This document shows, piece after piece, positions 35,846 through 43,712 of a stretch of DNA of 48,195 bases. Under the pieces are notes generated by a model. The model made no database searches and was not told where the DNA came from. It saw only the letters and a program-made list of their open reading frames with translations. Position 1 is the first letter of the stretch, and every line of letters starts with the position of its first letter. Source of the stretch: Candidatus Bathyarchaeota archaeon (GTDB taxonomy: Archaea; Thermoproteota; Bathyarchaeia; Bathyarchaeales; Bathycorpusculaceae); the NCBI GenBank assembly GCA_016927895.1, contig JAFGLT010000083.1, positions 1 to 48,195 on the forward strand. The letters run 5' to 3'. A program made the translations under genes and the position numbers.

Positions 35846-36109
35846 CTAAACCTCCAAGCTTGGTAAAAAGTCAATAATTTTTAACATTGTCTGGATTAAT
35901 GAGTTATCGAATTTTTGGTGGTCTTCTATGTTTGTTATGGAACTGAAGGGCGTTATGCTGTTGTTTGCGTCATTTTTTTCCAAGGTTATTATTCGTGGGC
36001 CTTTGTCTTTTGGTTTTTTTAGTTCGATAAACGCTGGTAAGAACATGAGGAGAATAAGTATGGTGGTCGTTGTAATTATTATGATAATCTCATTCAGATT
36101 CGGAATCAT
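35846..36109 (-). CDS. Small single-TM protein with IE-x2-QK-x-D C-terminal motif
   Basis: The 87-aa protein has an N-terminal membrane helix (about residues 8-28) and a cytoplasmic tail. The last 28 residues resemble those of the 65-aa protein at 39192-39389: NIEDHQKFDNSLIQ aligns with DIEHNQKVDYALVK, then KIIDFL with KIIEFL. That similarity is the reason to accept it over the overlapping plus-strand frame 35928-36137. It begins 25 bp after the processive GT2 gene in the same direction and is probably its operon partner. No family known to me. Confidence 0.62.
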   Translation of the reverse strand: MIPNLNEIIIIITTTTILILLMFLPAFIELKKPKDKGPRIITLEKNDANNSITPFSSITNIEDHQKFDNSLIQTMLKIIDFLPSLEV

Positions 36110-36133: not shown

Positions 36134-37417
36134 TTAATTTCTAATATAACTATTTCCATTACCGAGATGGGTGGTCTTCGCCCATTCACTCTGACTTTTC
36201 CTCAGTATTTTCGCAACCACAAGATCCAGAAGCGCTTTTGTACATATGAGAATAGTATACAAATACACAAAGAACAAGAGAGGAATCAACCATTGGATTC
36301 TTGTTCTGCCATCTAAATACGCGCCGATTCCGATTTCAAAGAACGGTGCAAAGTTGCCTACAAGACTGTAAAAAGACACTGGAACAAAAAACCAAAACGC
36401 GTTAATAACATATGAGGAATCAAATACGATGAGAAAGGCGCCCACAAAAAATGTGATCAGCGTTAGAACAGGCATGAAATAAACGTGTAGCAGAAGCAAT
36501 CCGTCAATTTTCTCTTTTACATTCAGCTTTTTACTTCTTAAGACGCGCGGTGCGTGCTTGAAACATACCTGCATATGTCCTTTAGCCCACCTGTGCCTTT
36601 GTCTCCAGTACGCTTTCCAGTTGTTCACGGCTTCTTCGTAGCATTCAGCGTCGCCTGCGTAGCGAACTTTGAAGCCTTCGAGATAAATTTGAAACGTCAA
36701 ATCAGTGTCTTCAGTCAACATTGACTCGTCAAAACCGCCTAGTTTTTCCAAAACGCTTCGTCTGAAGCCCCCAACTGTGCCGCCGAACTGGGGTATAAGG
36801 CCCAGATTATCCCGCGCCTCTTGGTCAATCCTGTAGCCGCCTATCCTTTCCAGGGTCACTAATCGCGTTACTATGTTTTGTGATTCATTCAGTACAACAG
36901 GACGCCCCTGCACGGCTCCAATTGAGGGGTGGGCGAATTCCTTTACAAGTTTTTCCACGATATTATTCTGGGGGTAATAGTCCGCGTCGAAGCAAAGTAC
37001 AATTTCACCTTTTGATCGGGCTAGGGCAGCGTTCAAGGCTGAGGGTTTACCTTTGCCGCCGGTTTTTTCGTCGCGATGCAATACTTCTATGAACGGGTAA
37101 CGGTTTGAGAACTCTTCGGCAATTTGCCTCGTGCGGTCGGATGAAGCGTCGTCGATTGCGATGACTTGTAGCTTGTTGCGCGGATAAGTTATTTTGGTCA
37201 TTTGCTGTAGCAGTTGTCCAATTACTTTTTCTTCGTCGCGCGCTGGGATTAGGATGGAAACGGTGGGCTCGTACTTCACTTCTGTGGTATCATCTTTTTC
37301 TCTGTTTTTCTGGGCTCTTTTCAAAACGGTTAATGTGAAGACGTAGTGCCTGACAAGATACGCTATCATAACCGCAGTAAACAAAAAGAATACAATTTCC
37401 AGCGTTTCAATAATCAA
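36134..37417 (-). CDS. Processive-type family 2 glycosyltransferase, membrane bound
   Basis: The 427-aa protein has an N-terminal membrane helix, a GT-A catalytic domain with IDDASSDRT, LCFDADYYP, LTEDTDLT and QRHRWAKGH (the D, DxD, TED and QxxRW motifs of cellulose/hyaluronan-synthase-like enzymes), and three C-terminal helices. Such enzymes polymerise and translocate beta-linked sugars or add N-acetylglucosamine to poly-GlcNAc. It overlaps the upstream 132-aa membrane gene by 11 bp, and the two are probably made together. Confidence 0.9.
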   Translation of the reverse strand: MIIETLEIVFFLFTAVMIAYLVRHYVFTLTVLKRAQKNREKDDTTEVKYEPTVSILIPARDEEKVIGQLLQQMTKITYPRNKLQVIAIDDASSDRTRQIAEEFSNRYPFIEVLHRDEKTGGKGKPSALNAALARSKGEIVLCFDADYYPQNNIVEKLVKEFAHPSIGAVQGRPVVLNESQNIVTRLVTLERIGGYRIDQEARDNLGLIPQFGGTVGGFRRSVLEKLGGFDESMLTEDTDLTFQIYLEGFKVRYAGDAECYEEAVNNWKAYWRQRHRWAKGHMQVCFKHAPRVLRSKKLNVKEKIDGLLLLHVYFMPVLTLITFFVGAFLIVFDSSYVINAFWFFVPVSFYSLVGNFAPFFEIGIGAYLDGRTRIQWLIPLLFFVYLYTILICTKALLDLVVAKILRKSQSEWAKTTHLGNGNSYIRN

Positions 37418-37935: not shown

Positions 37936-38550
37936 CTATGGCTTTTGGCTTTTGAGGATGATGTTGTCCATTACTGTGCAGAGGGTCTGGAAGACTTCCC
38001 CTGCGTTCAAGTTGTCAGTGTCCAAAACCAAATCAAAGGAATGAAGGTCCTCGCCTAGAGTGAAGCCATAAAGCTTCTTGTAGATGGCTTTTGTTTTTTC
38101 TTCTTTTTCTTTTAGCACTTGTAAGGCTTCTTCTATGGAGAGTTTGTCTCTCTCAGCGATTCTTTCAGCTCTCTTTTCTACTGACGCAATTAACCATATT
38201 TTGAAGCCAGTTTTGAGCAGCCACGGCATTGTCCAGCTGTCTAAAAGAACCTGTCCCTGTTGCGCGTATTCCAAGAGTTTATTGTCAACTGCTTTGTCAA
38301 ATTCGTGGTTTTGTTCTCTCTTCTCTAAAAAGCTGAGGCCTTCGGGGCTTTCCCACCATCCGTTGCTGGATGAATCGTATCCTTCGGTTGCTGCTAGCTC
38401 TTTTAAGGCGTCGCCGCCTGAATAGTATTTTAAATCGTATTTTTCGGCGAGTTTCTTGGCTAGCGTGCTTTTTCCGGTTCCAGCCATTCCGGATATGCAG
38501 ACTACAATTTTTTTGGTTGTGGCGCTCTCCGTTTTTTTGTTTCTGGTCAT
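37936..38550 (-). CDS. cmk: Archaeal cytidylate kinase-like P-loop kinase
   Basis: The 204-aa protein has the P-loop GMAGTGKSTLAKKLAEKY followed by YYSGGDALKELA, a lid with AERIAERDKLS and EALQVLKEKEEKTKAIYKKLYG. This is the archaeal Cmk type, which phosphorylates CMP/dCMP. Its place directly after the DUF106 gene in the secY neighbourhood is the usual archaeal order. The 19-bp gap to DUF106 supports co-transcription. truB and rpl14e, commonly downstream, are absent here. Confidence 0.85.
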   Translation of the reverse strand: MTRNKKTESATTKKIVVCISGMAGTGKSTLAKKLAEKYDLKYYSGGDALKELAATEGYDSSSNGWWESPEGLSFLEKREQNHEFDKAVDNKLLEYAQQGQVLLDSWTMPWLLKTGFKIWLIASVEKRAERIAERDKLSIEEALQVLKEKEEKTKAIYKKLYGFTLGEDLHSFDLVLDTDNLNAGEVFQTLCTVMDNIILKSQKP

Positions 38551-38569: not shown

Positions 38570-39034
38570 TTATGCTATAGGCGTTACGCCTACTATGCGA
38601 GAGGCTAGGGTTCCGAAGAAGAATGAGCATATCATGTACCAGTATATCACAGGTATGCCTGTTGGAGCGAGTCCCGGCACAACTGCCACAGCGTTTGCCC
38701 CATAGGTGGGAATTAGAAAGATGTACCAGATTATTATGTAGCTGAAGCTTATGGGGAGCAGTATCATTTGGGGCTTCATCATTTTGTTTTGCATGTTTCT
38801 TATTTGGGACTCTTTCTTTCTCAGTTTCTCAACGCGTTTCGTGTCGTTCGCGCGCATGGCCGCCATCAGCTGAGACTGGTATTCAGATGTCTCCTTCCGC
38901 ATTACTTTGTATTCTTCCCATCCGCATATGCGAGTAATCAAAAGGCGGTTGATGACCATGTTAAGAAACGAGACAGTAACCGCAATCAGCATTATCACTA
39001 ACGTTGCTACTGGAACAACTGTAATGTCTAGCAT
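38570..39034 (-). CDS. DUF106/EMC3-like membrane insertase-family protein
   Basis: From ATG 39034, which has GGTGA about 7 bases upstream, this gives 154 aa. The order is one membrane helix, a basic coiled-coil (EYQSQLMAAMRANDTKRVEKLRKK), then two membrane helices (IIIWYIFLIPTY, WYMICSFFFGTL). This is the archaeal homologue group of YidC/Oxa1/EMC3, which helps insert membrane proteins at SecY. In many archaea it lies right after secY-adk; here 2.2 kb separates it from secY. Confidence 0.88.
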   Translation of the reverse strand: MLDITVVPVATLVIMLIAVTVSFLNMVINRLLITRICGWEEYKVMRKETSEYQSQLMAAMRANDTKRVEKLRKKESQIRNMQNKMMKPQMILLPISFSYIIIWYIFLIPTYGANAVAVVPGLAPTGIPVIYWYMICSFFFGTLASRIVGVTPIA

Positions 39035-39191
39035 CTTTGTTTCACCTTGCACTGCCTATTTGTTTTCTTGTTAATAACCATTTTTACTCTTGGAAACTGA
39101 CAAGCTATAGTGGGGCTTCTCCTAAAATTGTTTGGCTAAGCTTTTCAGCAGAAATGGTGCATTGGTAGAATAAAATTGGAAGTGTTCAGTG

Positions 39192-39389
39192 TTAATCCTC
39201 TATATTTTGCAAAAACTCAATAATTTTCGCAAGCCGTTTCACTAATGCATAATCAACCTTTTGGTTATGTTCTATGTCCGCAAGCTGCACTGGCTTTCCC
39301 ATAATCGAATTCAATGCGCTGCCGAGTTTATAGCAATTGTCTTTGTTCAGGCTTCGAACTTCGAAGTAACGGAAGTGCTTTCCTCGCAT
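39192..39389 (-). CDS. Small protein with IE-x2-QK-x-D C-terminal motif
   Basis: The 65-aa protein is basic at the N-terminus (RGKHFRYFEVRSLNKD) and ends in DIEHNQKVDYALVKRLAKIIEFL, which resembles the tail of the protein at 35846. The N-terminal parts differ, and this one has no membrane helix. The pattern suggests a shared interaction helix. It lies 158 bp upstream of DUF106 in the same direction. Function unknown. Confidence 0.55.
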   Translation of the reverse strand: MRGKHFRYFEVRSLNKDNCYKLGSALNSIMGKPVQLADIEHNQKVDYALVKRLAKIIEFLQNIED

Positions 39390-39865
39390 ATTTTAACATT
39401 TTAATTTAATTTTCTAACTATTGGTTACGAGAAAATTGATGTTTTTACGGCTCTCACATGGCAGAAACATCGTTTTTTAGTCTAATACAGGGCTTTAACT
39501 GGTTCGCTCTCTTACAGCAGCCTTTACGACTGTCGAACTCTGGACAGTTAAAGCAGGTTGTAACCTCTTGTTTCCCCATGAAATCTAACTTCCTTAAAGT
39601 GTGGATGCAATGCTCCACATAATGTCCTCTTGGAATAGTTATTTGAAAACGTTAATTTATTTTGTGCTTCTTTTAAGCCATACACTTTCAGCTTGGCTGG
39701 ATTGCGTTGTTTAATTTTTCTTCCTCGCGTTTCCAAGAATACTTGTAATATTGGAAATGAAATAAGTAGGTAGTGCAGTGGCATCACAGTTAATCTGAAG
39801 TGTTTATACTTGGCGAAAATGAAAAATATGGGTGGCAACATAGTTAACACTTTGGGAGGATAAGA
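39390..39865. other. Accessory intergenic stretch with one micro-ORF
   Basis: This 476-bp stretch has no ordinary gene. A minus-strand frame from 39928 to 39548 is open but has no protein-like pattern, and the better-supported 39866-40027 gene overlaps its start. Within it, 39454-39579 holds a Cys-rich micro-ORF. TTTATAC near 39803 may be the promoter of the 53-aa zinc-ribbon gene. Confidence 0.4.
39454..39579 (-). CDS. Putative 41-aa cysteine-rich micro-protein
   Basis: The ATG at 39579 opens a 41-codon frame with five cysteines: CFNC (9-12), CC (21-22) and C31 in KPC. A purine-rich AAGGAAG lies about 9 bases upstream. Cys spacing fits a small zinc or iron-sulfur site. The size is at the limit of what sequence can support, and no homologue is known to me. 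Confidence 0.4.
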   Translation of the reverse strand: MGKQEVTTCFNCPEFDSRKGCCKRANQLKPCIRLKNDVSAM

Positions 39866-40027
39866 GTGGTAGAGTATGTAAAGGGGTCTCCACCTGACAG
39901 ATGGCATTGGTGTAAGAACTGCACGCAATATCCCCTATACATTTATGAGAGACGCTCTAAGAAGCCGCAATCTGACCTCTGTGACCAGTGTAGAACAAAG
40001 GAAGAAAACTACAACTGCACAACCTGA
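39866..40027 (+). CDS. 53-aa zinc-ribbon micro-protein
   Basis: GTG at 39866 is preceded by GGGAGGA (39854-39860), the best Shine-Dalgarno in the area. The 53 residues contain HWCKNCTQYP (CXXC at 16-19) and LCDQCRTKEE (CXXC at 39-42) separated by about 20 residues, a classic zinc ribbon. TTTATAC lies about 60 bp upstream. Small zinc-ribbon proteins in archaea are often nucleic-acid or ribosome associated. The two CXXC pairs and the ribosome site make this the more secure of the two micro-genes. Confidence 0.62.
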   Translation: MVEYVKGSPPDRWHWCKNCTQYPLYIYERRSKKPQSDLCDQCRTKEENYNCTT

Positions 40028-40139
40028 AAAACTATACAAAATTCGGTAGGAGTTCTCACCTGACTATGCTAAAGACTGCTTTTCTGGTTTTACATAACCT
40101 ATTTTAGGTTTATTGAACATTACTACCGTGTGATGTTTT

Positions 40140-40343
40140 ATGGGTTTTCTGAAGAAAGTTAAAGACAAAACAGAAGAATCAGTCAAGAAAGTCGGAGAAG
40201 ACGGGACAAAGCTGGGTAAGAAGGGTCTCAAAGGAACAAAAACGGTAGCTAAGAAAGGCGCTAAAGCAACTAAGACCTTTGCAAAGAAGGGCGTTAAGGA
40301 AACAAAGAAGGCCGCTAAGAAAGTAAAGAAGAAAGTTACGTAG
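40140..40343 (+). CDS. Lysine-rich 11-residue-repeat protein
   Basis: The 67-aa protein contains about 40% lysine and almost no hydrophobic residues apart from Val/Ala/Leu at fixed steps. Residues about 28-60 form three near-perfect 11-mers: KKGLKGTKTVA, KKGAKATKTFA, KKGVKETKKAA, and then KKVKKKVT. This could be an H1-like nucleic-acid compaction protein, or a LEA/synuclein-like 11/3 helix that binds membranes. The neighbours are a zinc ribbon and a wHTH-nuclease-like gene. No clear ribosome site is visible. Confidence 0.7.
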   Translation: MGFLKKVKDKTEESVKKVGEDGTKLGKKGLKGTKTVAKKGAKATKTFAKKGVKETKKAAKKVKKKVT

Positions 40344-40474
40344 CTTCTGTTCAAGATGCTGCGAGCTTTCCTTTTTTCTAAATTCCGCGGTTTCTAGGGA
40401 ACAGTCGCTTTTCCACAAAGTTATTAGAACTGAACCTTGCATACATTCATTAAATCTGCTATGGGGTTTCAAGA

Positions 40475-41203
40475 ATGGTTCCAGTTTTCAATTTGAAAGA
40501 CTCAATTGTTGAAGCATTAAACGCTTTAGGTGGTTCTGGCACAGCAACTCAGGTAAGAGATTACATAAAGTCAAATTATGGGAAAGACTGGCGAGACATT
40601 GAAAAAATAATGGACGACTTGTGTCAAGAAAGCGAGTCTTCCTTTTTCCTCCCCGCAGACAGGGTTCTAACGAAAATTGGAAAGGGAAAATACGCTCTGA
40701 AGGAAACAGCAGTTCCTGAACCGTTAGAAGCAAGTGCGGAAAGCAGAGAAGAATTGTCCGGCTTTGGATTAGAACGAAAGGTTTTCAGTTTCAAAGGCGC
40801 TGAAGAGCTTCTGCGGAGAAAAGGTCAGCTTTCAACTATTATGCAGGCTGCTTCTTTAACAGATCTTTCATCAACAGAGAATCACGACAGGATACAGCAT
40901 TTTCTTCACAAGAACATGTGGGACATAGAAGTATCGCTGTTTCCAGTGGCAACTTACAAGCTTGATGCTTTCAAAGAGAAAACAGCAATCGAAATTGAGC
41001 GGTCATTCATCGACGCGGTTCACAGGTCCCTCTTTAGATGCCTCTTAGCTTACACCAAAAACCAGTTGGACGTACTAGTTTTCATAGTTCCCACCTACAA
41101 GGAACCCAAATTTGAGCAGGTAAAACGGGATTTACTTGAATTCAAGGAAATAATTCCTTACCCAGTTTATTTGGTAGGCGTAACCCCTCTCAGCGCTAAT
41201 TAA
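40475..41203 (+). CDS. Winged-helix plus PD-(D/E)XK nuclease-like protein
   Basis: The 242-aa protein starts with a helix-turn-helix domain (residues 5 to about 75: DSIVEALNALGGSGTATQVRDYI ending LTKIGKGKYAL), like the HARE/wHTH seen in DNA-modification systems. The C-terminal half has YKLDAFKEKTAIEIERSF, where D, E and E-x-E/K order fits a PD-(D/E)XK active site of the BglII-like restriction class, then LFRCLLAYTKNQLDVLVFIVPTY. No methyltransferase is in the window. It could be a solitary nuclease, a repair factor or a regulator with a decayed site. Confidence 0.65.
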   Translation: MVPVFNLKDSIVEALNALGGSGTATQVRDYIKSNYGKDWRDIEKIMDDLCQESESSFFLPADRVLTKIGKGKYALKETAVPEPLEASAESREELSGFGLERKVFSFKGAEELLRRKGQLSTIMQAASLTDLSSTENHDRIQHFLHKNMWDIEVSLFPVATYKLDAFKEKTAIEIERSFIDAVHRSLFRCLLAYTKNQLDVLVFIVPTYKEPKFEQVKRDLLEFKEIIPYPVYLVGVTPLSAN

Positions 41204-41250
41204 GCTATATATAAGGCGGCTAAGTTTTTCCGCCTGATAGAGTTTCCCAG

Positions 41251-42663
41251 CTAGTCTCCTAAGATTCTTCTGAACGCAGGGAACATTTCTGCTGCGCGCT
41301 CACGCATCAACAGTTCGTAGTACTGGTAGATTATACCTACTGACAACAAGATGCCTGTTCCCGTTCCGAAAACGCCTAGGAAATCTGCAATTCCAGCGAT
41401 TAAGCCTACTATTATTCCACCGAGAACCGTAACCACCGGAATATACCGTTTAAGAATAGCCTGTATAGGTTTCCCAGAACGCCGATAACCTGGAATCTGC
41501 ATCCCTGAATCCATAAGTTGCTTCGCCACTTTATCAGGCCCAAGACCACCCACCTCAAGCCAAATAAGCGAGAAAACCGCACAAAACGCCACAAGAATAG
41601 CCAAGTACATCGCAGCCCTCACTGGCGCAGTAGCTACATCCGTGAGGCCATTGGGCGAAGTTACAAAGTAAGCAAGACCTCCAACAGGCGTAACGCTGCC
41701 ACTAGACGTGGTGTTATAGTCACCTATGATTTGGAAGAGCAGGTTCGTTCCGGGACTAGGTGCTCCCATCTGGCTCCAGAGCAGCTGAGAAAAGAAGTAG
41801 ACGTTAGCAAAAAGCGCAGACGCAAAGATAACTGGAAGGTTAGAAACATATAAAAGCTTAATCGGGTAACGGCTCCGGAAGCCCTTGTACCCAGCGTAAG
41901 TCATCGGCAACTCAACCCTGACACCTTCCAAGTAAATTATCACCAAGAAAGTTGCAACCGTTGCTAAGAACCCAATCAACGAGGGATAAGCTCCACCGCC
42001 AATCACCCAATCCGTTAACTGGTACGACGCATCACCTAATGAAAGCTGGTAAAGCCCACCTACGAACAAACCGGTTCCAGGATTAAACGTCTGCCAGAGA
42101 ATGTTCTGCGCAACTCCAGCCATAATGAAAAGGCTGATTCCGCTGCCCAAACCCCAACCTTTCTGAACCAGCTCATCCATCAGCATCACAATTATTCCAG
42201 CGCCAATAAGTTGCAGGAATATAATTATGGTCGTTGGTCCTGCAAGATCACCATACATGCCGCTTATTATGTATGCTGAAGCCTGAATTCCCGTAAGCAA
42301 TATGGAAAAGAATTTACTTGCAACCGTAAACAAGCCTCTGTCTTGAGAATCAGACATGTCAGCTTGTATGATAGCAGAACCAACTAGCAGCTGCAGTATT
42401 AAGCCTGCAGTAACTATGGGACCTATACCAAGTTCCATGAGCGTACCGCGGTTTGAAGCGAAAATTACTCTCAGGGAACCATAATATTCTTGCACGTCCC
42501 CGCTGATTCCATAAAGGGGGATTTCGGTCATAACCAAGTACACGATGAGAACGAGTGCTGTCCAGAAGATTTTTTCATTGAAGCTTACTTTGCGTTCAGG
42601 AACCTTGATTTCAGGAAGAACTCTTGCGAGTGGTTTGAAGAGGCTTAGAAATCTTCCGGCCAT
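41251..42663 (-). CDS. secY: Preprotein translocase subunit SecY
   Basis: The 470-aa protein has ten membrane helices in the SecY/Sec61-alpha order. EIPLYGISG near helix 1, the plug and helix 2 GPIVTAGLILQLLVGS, and the cytoplasmic loops VRVELPMTYAGYKGFRSRYPIKLLYVSN and MDSGMQIPGYRRSGKPI are characteristic. It forms the protein-conducting channel. It follows rpl15 by 9 bp. The usual next gene in archaea, adk, is not there. Confidence 0.97.
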   Translation of the reverse strand: MAGRFLSLFKPLARVLPEIKVPERKVSFNEKIFWTALVLIVYLVMTEIPLYGISGDVQEYYGSLRVIFASNRGTLMELGIGPIVTAGLILQLLVGSAIIQADMSDSQDRGLFTVASKFFSILLTGIQASAYIISGMYGDLAGPTTIIIFLQLIGAGIIVMLMDELVQKGWGLGSGISLFIMAGVAQNILWQTFNPGTGLFVGGLYQLSLGDASYQLTDWVIGGGAYPSLIGFLATVATFLVIIYLEGVRVELPMTYAGYKGFRSRYPIKLLYVSNLPVIFASALFANVYFFSQLLWSQMGAPSPGTNLLFQIIGDYNTTSSGSVTPVGGLAYFVTSPNGLTDVATAPVRAAMYLAILVAFCAVFSLIWLEVGGLGPDKVAKQLMDSGMQIPGYRRSGKPIQAILKRYIPVVTVLGGIIVGLIAGIADFLGVFGTGTGILLSVGIIYQYYELLMRERAAEMFPAFRRILGD

Positions 42664-43111: not shown

Positions 43112-43585
43112 TTAATCAGCTTTTTTGTTTATTGTTTCTTTTTTTTGAAGTTTGATTTCTAGCACGCCGTTTTTGAAGGTGGTGCGGACGGCGTTTGGGA
43201 CAACTACTTTGGGTAGGTTTAAGCTTTTATAGTATCTGCGGTTTTTCGCTTTCGCTGACAGCGTTATTTTTTGGTCTTTCACATGTATTTTCAGGGTTTC
43301 CTTATTAAAGCCTGCGATTTCGGCGACTATAGTTATCCACTTTTTCTCTTGGAAAATGTCAATGAGCGGTTTAGGGTCCTTCCATTTCCGTCTGGCGTAG
43401 CTTTGGGTGGACCTGTAATGTTGAGGATAAAGTTTCCTTGAGGTGTGCATGTTTTCGATGCGCTGGATTTTAGGGTGGCTTTCAGCGTTATCTCTAATCT
43501 CGCTGTCTTCGTCAAGCCACTTCATGTGCTTCTTGCTTCTGCGCCACTTCGTACTCAAGTTTACTTCTCCTAAATACAAAGGCAT
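43112..43585 (-). CDS. Hsp20/alpha-crystallin-like protein
   Basis: From ATG 43585 this is 157 aa (the frame also allows ATG 43657, with a hydrophobic N-terminus). The first 70 residues are basic and disordered; the second half is a beta-sandwich: DIFQEKKWITIVAEIAGF, LKIHVKDQKITLSAKA, and TTFKNGVLEIKLQKK, the GVLxI/L strand of alpha-crystallin domains. It probably acts as a holdase chaperone. It is the first gene of the rpl15-secY unit, ending 2 bp before rpl15, a partner I have not seen described in this cluster. Confidence 0.75.
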   Translation of the reverse strand: MPLYLGEVNLSTKWRRSKKHMKWLDEDSEIRDNAESHPKIQRIENMHTSRKLYPQHYRSTQSYARRKWKDPKPLIDIFQEKKWITIVAEIAGFNKETLKIHVKDQKITLSAKAKNRRYYKSLNLPKVVVPNAVRTTFKNGVLEIKLQKKETINKKAD

Positions 43586-43712
43586 TTCCAACCTAACTAT
43601 AAAATGTATCGCACAAAAAAGAAAAGAAAACAAGACTGAACCGAACCTTGATTCCATGCAAAACCGCTTTTCTGTGGCGTTGATACTGTTATGCTTGGAA
43701 AAGACTATAGCC

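Follow-up and report, generated by a model that had tools for sequence, protein, structure and literature searches.

A probable stepwise accretion of small genes between secY and DUF106 in a Candidatus Bathyarchaeota archaeon, and a putative new microprotein with a conserved promoter

The 2.2-kb interval between rpl15-secY and DUF106-cmk in a genome of Candidatus Bathyarchaeota (GCA_016927895.1) probably arose step by step, as independent small transcription units accumulated in a gap that had already lost adkA, and is probably neither a mobile element nor a single system. One of these units appears to encode a new microprotein family, NID36, with an exceptionally conserved promoter. The window, that is, the whole stretch of DNA analysed, is 48,195 nucleotides long and corresponds to contig C86 of a 1.69-Mb assembly of 119 contigs (genome G000). 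We searched 257 genomes of the class (G000-G256); genera and families carry g and f numbers. We establish directly the boundaries of the block, its gene content, phylogenetic order and homologies, the fold of its nuclease, the coding status of its genes and the promoter element. The initial annotation of this block is partly confirmed in what it observed and partly supported in how it interpreted it.

The annotation had located the interval at positions 39053-41250, with genes on both strands and with DUF106 and cmk at its side, and profile matches of the flanking genes agree with that (Table 1). Five genes lie within the gap: nuc242, lys67 and z53 on the plus strand, c54 and a 65-codon open reading frame (ORF) on the minus strand. 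A nuclease-like gene with a winged helix, a Lys-repeat protein and two Cys-rich micro-ORFs had been proposed, and comparison with sister genomes supports all four as coding. In nuc242 and lys67 the changes are mostly at third positions or synonymous. For z53 and c54 the counts are smaller and the support is weaker; z53 also has homologues in 24 of the 257 genomes, with up to three copies each.

An archaeal secY-adkA-DUF106(YidC-like)-cmk neighbourhood has been described (PMC5898192). The flanks and their order are alike in our genomes, and adkA fills the slot in five relatives. In contrast, the window has no adkA there, and its gap holds five unrelated small genes, three of them on the opposite strand. 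An Hsp20-family gene (43112-43657, minus strand) stands directly before rpl15-secY, an order kept in most relatives of the order.

Table 1. Features of the window discussed in the text, with their positions and the evidence for each.
Feature	Position	Strand	Evidence
TM87, 87 aa, one predicted TM segment, NID36-like C-tail	35846..36109	-	directly after GT2 gene; NID36 profile
GT2 membrane glycosyltransferase	36134..37417	-	PF13641 E 3.7e-30; syntenic in relatives
cmk, archaeal (d)CMP kinase, flank	37936..38550	-	TIGR02173 E 6.8e-34, over cut-off
DUF106 / EMC3-TMCO1-like, YidC-type insertase, flank	38570..39052	-	PF01956 E 5.5e-8
NID36, putative 36-aa acidic microprotein, coding part of the "65-aa protein"	39192..39302	-	constant start, 34-37 aa and stop in 38 genomes
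TATA-like box CTATAAA, ~25 nt before NID36 ATG	39327..39333	-	fixed spacing from palindrome
15-bp palindrome CTTCGAASTTCGAAG, operator-like	39352..39366	.	27 of 28 non-redundant copies invariant except for S centre; one per genome
c54, Cys-rich, ~41 aa, C-x2-C-x8-CC-x9-C	39454..39579	-	homologues in g1, g10 and g14 only
z53, zinc-ribbon-type, WHWCxNC ... LCxxC	39866..40027	+	alignment; GGGAGG ribosome-binding site upstream
lys67, Lys-rich, six 11-residue repeats starting KK	40140..40343	+	33-nt DNA repeat
nuc242, N-terminal winged-helix-like domain and BglII/BamHI-type nuclease	40475..41203	+	PF09195, model, Foldseek, alignment
secY, flank	41251..42663	-	NF006341 E 5.2e-135

The block had been taken to stand in the place of a missing adk. 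The slot is indeed without adk, and AdkA (NF003122) has no match in the whole G000 assembly, with the same search positive in Methanocaldococcus and Sulfolobus controls. Adenylate kinase as such is not missing: a long-type enzyme is encoded between rtcB and archease (G000:C42:5155-5808; TIGR01351 E 6.4e-69). This long-type (zinc-LID) adk, with AdkA absent, is a non-orthologous replacement.

The secY-DUF106 gap could be measured in 24 relatives. It spans 20-284 bp in 19 of them, 613-633 bp in three and more than 1.7 kb in two. Five of about 31 relatives carry adkA within the slot, namely the three with mid-size gaps (G024, G025 and G027) and the sister genomes G033 and G039 of genus g24; most of the others have neither adkA nor the block. 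It does not hold that adk never occupies the slot in this order: a tblastn search with the long-type adk as query overlooks AdkA, which direct inspection of the gaps revealed. The secY-DUF106 slot is the ancestral adkA slot. Two close relatives of the window genome, G003 and G020, have lost adkA from the slot and yet carry no block. Hence the loss of adkA, which predates the block, does not explain it. Slots without adkA are common in relatives without the block, and the two events are unlinked.

When the locus is aligned among relatives, the block is not common to all of them, so it does not turn out to be an old trait of the lineage. By synteny across the roughly 31 relatives, the full gene set occurs in genus g1, a part of it in g10 and one block gene only in g46. 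nuc242 and lys67 are present in the window genome and in G002. In G001 the block is decaying, with nuc242 shortened to 22 codons and z53 frameshifted. The g10 genome, G011, has z53, c54 and NID36 between secY and DUF106 and is without nuc242 and lys67. In G050 (g46) NID36 lies behind secY, followed by a gene for an 864-aa secreted-type protein and then by DUF106. The 864-aa gene (L171:4925-7519), with BamB-like (PQQ) and weak Ig-like matches, is an unrelated second insertion into the same gap. A tree of SecY, L15 and Cmk joins G011 with G050 (0.98) and places that pair next to g1 (0.97). NID36 is found beside secY only in these three genera.

Read along this tree, NID36 would have arrived first (g46, g10 and g1), z53 and c54 would have followed (g10 and g1), and lys67 and nuc242 would have come last (g1 only), with decay begun since. 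Genus g1 is represented by three genomes and g10 by one, and G001 is half complete, which leaves the order of gain of z53 versus c54 uncertain. lys67 and nuc242, adjacent and on the same strand, were gained together and could be a functional pair. G011 keeps secY adjoining the block; the gene order of the window is therefore the older one. In G001 and G002 the secY side of the block has become joined to a different hsp20 and to a 136-aa gene, and in G002 (C103, C5) secY-rpl15 has moved onto a contig separate from the block.

Elsewhere the block genes occur apart. z53 is found on other contigs and in several copies, c54 occurs alone in g14, and NID36 occurs without either. Each part is gained, lost and positioned on its own, which does not support the suggestion of a single new set. 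The simplest account is that small gains and losses recurred at a permissive spot. Ribosomal or secretion operons often harbour lineage-specific genes. Therefore the block alone is of modest significance; it is ordinary genome plasticity with one interesting nuclease.

This nuclease, nuc242, matches PF09195 with an E value of 2.6e-6 (27.7 bits, cut-off 26), and its sole sequence match in the PDB is a weak one to BamHI. The ten best Foldseek matches in the PDB are all to BglII, OkrAI and BamHI (prob 1.00). The nuclease half is modelled at a pLDDT of ~80, the winged-helix part poorly (~30-70). An acidic triad, D164-x8-E173-x-E175, is present in G000 and G002. In a four-member alignment D164, E175, K167, K169 and a DAVHR motif are kept; E173 is kept in g1 only, and distant single-domain nuclease homologues have S at this position. 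The N-terminal domain forms three helices in the low-confidence model, and its best relative weakly matches DUF7669 and WH_Rok. A HARE-HTH assignment of the domain was considered, but Pfam gave no such match. The N-domain is also found stand-alone in other genomes (49% identity), and the BglII/BamHI-type nuclease domain stands alone in G014 and G118. Thus nuc242 is a fusion of two free modules. The stand-alone homologues of the N-domain are winged-helix genes of 70-90 aa (L037, L038, L039), and the copy in G036 adjoins aIF2-gamma.

nuc242 resembles BglII/BamHI-type enzymes (PF09195; PDB 1d2i, 1bhm) in predicted fold, in the D/E/E spacing and in an HRS motif past the second acidic pair. It differs from them in its N-terminal winged-helix-like extension, in an identity of only ~15% and in the lack of a neighbouring methyltransferase, its neighbours being secY, DUF106 and the micro-genes. 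Winged-helix fusions with other nucleases are 6mA-dependent type IV enzymes, mostly without neighbouring methyltransferases (PMC11037411). Their architecture is PD-(D/E)XK-wH with a C-terminal winged helix, and BamHI-type enzymes appear in that study only as a control group. Like these fusions, nuc242 combines a putative winged-helix part with a nuclease and has no methyltransferase neighbour. Unlike them, it has this part first and a BglII/BamHI-type nuclease; any methyl-dependence of nuc242 is hypothetical. nuc242 probably acts as a solitary restriction-type nuclease, in which the N-terminal winged helix would read DNA and a dimer of the BglII fold would cut it.

Such a gene invites the reading of the whole block as a defence module or mobile insertion, with nuc242 as effector and the small proteins as regulators, sensors or antitoxin-like partners. 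The restriction fold with its BamHI-like triad, the joint appearance of nuc242 and lys67 only in g1 and a weak match to the PADLOC type II REase model (E 0.0025) point that way. However, z53, c54 and NID36 are also found in relatives that lack nuc242, the block's neighbours are core genes, and the viral contigs that we searched hold no relative of nuc242. Gene content, profiles and Rfam revealed no integrase, transposase or tRNA at the block boundaries, and terminal repeats there do not exceed chance. The single Rfam match in the window is a tRNA far from the block, and PHROGs and PADLOC gave only chance-level matches for the small ORFs. We consider a defence module distinctly improbable. Of the insertion that the initial annotation suspected, lineage specificity and a restriction-type nuclease stand, and the mobile element does not. 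nuc242 could also be an ordinary type II restriction enzyme, with an unlinked genomic methyltransferase protecting the host. Its BglII/BamHI fold is characteristic of type II enzymes, and the window genome encodes a single full-length DNA methyltransferase of PF01555, which has a TSPPY motif and lies beside rpoB (G000:C119:26452-27219). Yet G011, a genome without nuc242, has the rpoB-side methyltransferase just the same; no methyltransferase adjoins nuc242; and fusion to a putative winged helix points to a type IV enzyme that depends on modification (cf. PMC11037411). The type II reading is possible but rather doubtful. The rpoB-side gene is an orphan N6/N4 methyltransferase (L184) with orthologues in G002 and G011.

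The start of c54, a gene found in six genomes, is best placed at the ATG at 39579, which matches the starts of its relatives. Across 13 aligned z53 sequences C16xxC19 and C39xxC42 are invariant, as are WHWCxNC, YP and LC. z53 is shorter than 70 aa with two CxxC pairs, and C(P)XCG motifs are absent from it (CxNC, and CxxC without G). Neither a profile search of the PDB nor a fold search with a moderately confident small model gave a match for z53. Three unlinked copies in G002 (L083, L104, L107) make z53 a paralogous set in the family, throughout which it occurs. Both z53 and c54 may be zinc micro-proteins. They resemble the haloarchaeal zinc finger micro-proteins (PMC6562870, PMC10716476, PMC11241148) in being shorter than 70 aa with paired Cys motifs; in contrast to these, they have no C(P)XCG consensus and no detectable sequence or fold relative. 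lys67 has a pI of 10.4, with 25 Lys and no Arg, and is 85-88% identical in G001 and G002. An 11-residue repeat pattern of this kind points to an amphipathic helix, such as that of LEA-like or synuclein-like proteins. lys67 might form such a basic helix and bind DNA or a membrane.

The remaining gene had been annotated as a 65-aa motif protein. Judging from sequence comparison, the N-terminal half of this ORF is promoter DNA, and only the last 36 codons (39192-39302) are coding. In relatives of the ORF at other loci these 36 codons keep one frame, and the preceding part is found in each of the three frames and is interrupted by stops. Substitution rates in NID36 are 0.34, 0.21 and 0.58 for the three codon positions, the third being the most variable, and 36% of codon changes are synonymous, versus ~10% in shifted frames. 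A profile search recovered the full standalone NID36 in 38 of the 257 genomes, one copy each and all from one family. The neighbourhood of NID36 differs, with parvulin in g12 and other genes in g14, g19 and g2; gene and promoter therefore move or are retained as a unit. The NID36 profile has no match in the PDB. For the 65-aa ORF Pfam also hinted, below its cut-off, at a T7 helicase/primase domain; this was discarded, the N-half of the ORF being non-coding.

Upstream of NID36 the elements follow in a set order: a AAATGTTAAAA-like box, the palindrome CTTCGAASTTCGAAG, the TATA-like box, 33 nt beyond the first TTCGAA, and the start codon, 60-64 nt beyond that TTCGAA. In 28 non-redundant copies of the palindrome only the G/C centre varies, plus the last base in one copy, with flanks at ~30% identity. 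Of the 38 NID36 genomes, 37 have the exact palindrome, nearly always once; G132 shows an additional match on one strand. The remaining genome, G136, carries a copy with a two-base spacer. Genomes of the same genus without NID36 are also without the palindrome, the exception being one A/T-centred chance match in G005. Palindrome matches outside the taxonomic family that has NID36 are chance matches as well, and no NID36 is found there. A distance of ~25 nt from TATA box to ATG fits a leaderless archaeal transcript, and the NID36 promoter is probably leaderless. With this arrangement the palindrome precedes the TATA box, a position suited to the binding of an activator.

Could the ORF nevertheless encode a genuine protein of 65 aa, disrupted by frameshifts in relatives? 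All 65 codons are open in the window, and the alignment with G001 covers 61 residues. However, the N-half is frame-shifted or interrupted by stops in many relatives, with its DNA conserved beyond a codon-driven pattern, and the 36-aa part always has a start codon, a near-constant length and third-position variation. We regard a 65-aa protein as extremely improbable. A further reading makes NID36 incidental and takes the palindrome region for a dif-like or origin-like site of the chromosome, or for a non-coding RNA. In its favour are the single copy in each genome, the perfection of the palindrome and the presence of another palindromic box. Yet the element always lies upstream of a NID36 start with the TATA-to-start spacing fixed at 25 nt, it has no Rfam match, and it is absent from many near-complete relatives, which is impossible for a dif site. 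This reading, too, is very improbable. From the comparisons made here, NID36 with its promoter looks like a genuine gene family.

A clue to the role of NID36 comes from TM87, only 3 kb away. The NID36 profile matches the TM87 tail of the window at 35852-35941 (E 1.1e-8) and that of G003 (E 4.2e-11), and recovers the C-tails of ORFs of 84-117 codons that are encoded after the GT2 gene. TM87, which is unlisted in Pfam, is kept beside GT2 through much of the family, including genomes without NID36. Its single hydrophobic segment is followed by KKPKDKGPR, and by the positive-inside rule the tail should be cytoplasmic. On this evidence NID36 is most plausibly a free copy of that tail. NID36 would then be a soluble look-alike of this tail with its own tightly controlled promoter and a dedicated palindromic operator. 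Our favoured hypothesis, held tentatively, is that NID36 competes with TM87 for the partner of the tail. Such competition would tune the GT2 glycosyltransferase complex. The full circuit, a new archaeal one in which a dedicated regulator binds the unique 15-bp operator and controls NID36 alone, the tail mimic that switches a membrane glycosyltransferase complex, is more speculative and, taken as a whole, unlikely. Trans-microProteins (reviewed in PMC6003976) are similar to NID36 in that they are single short domains related to part of a larger protein, with a promoter of their own. NID36 differs in being archaeal and related to the tail of a membrane protein, and an interaction or dominant-negative effect of NID36 would be hypothetical.

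Among BglII/BamHI nucleases, nuc242 is a version with a putative winged helix in front. The new part here would be NID36, whose 36 residues are a size that gene callers often skip, and the case illustrates that promoter DNA through which an ORF chances to stay open can be mistaken for protein sequence. An invariant operator-like site that occurs once per genome and travels with NID36 poses a sharp one-site regulator problem. If the proposed competition is true, NID36 may exemplify, in archaea, regulation through a micro-protein that mimics a protein tail.
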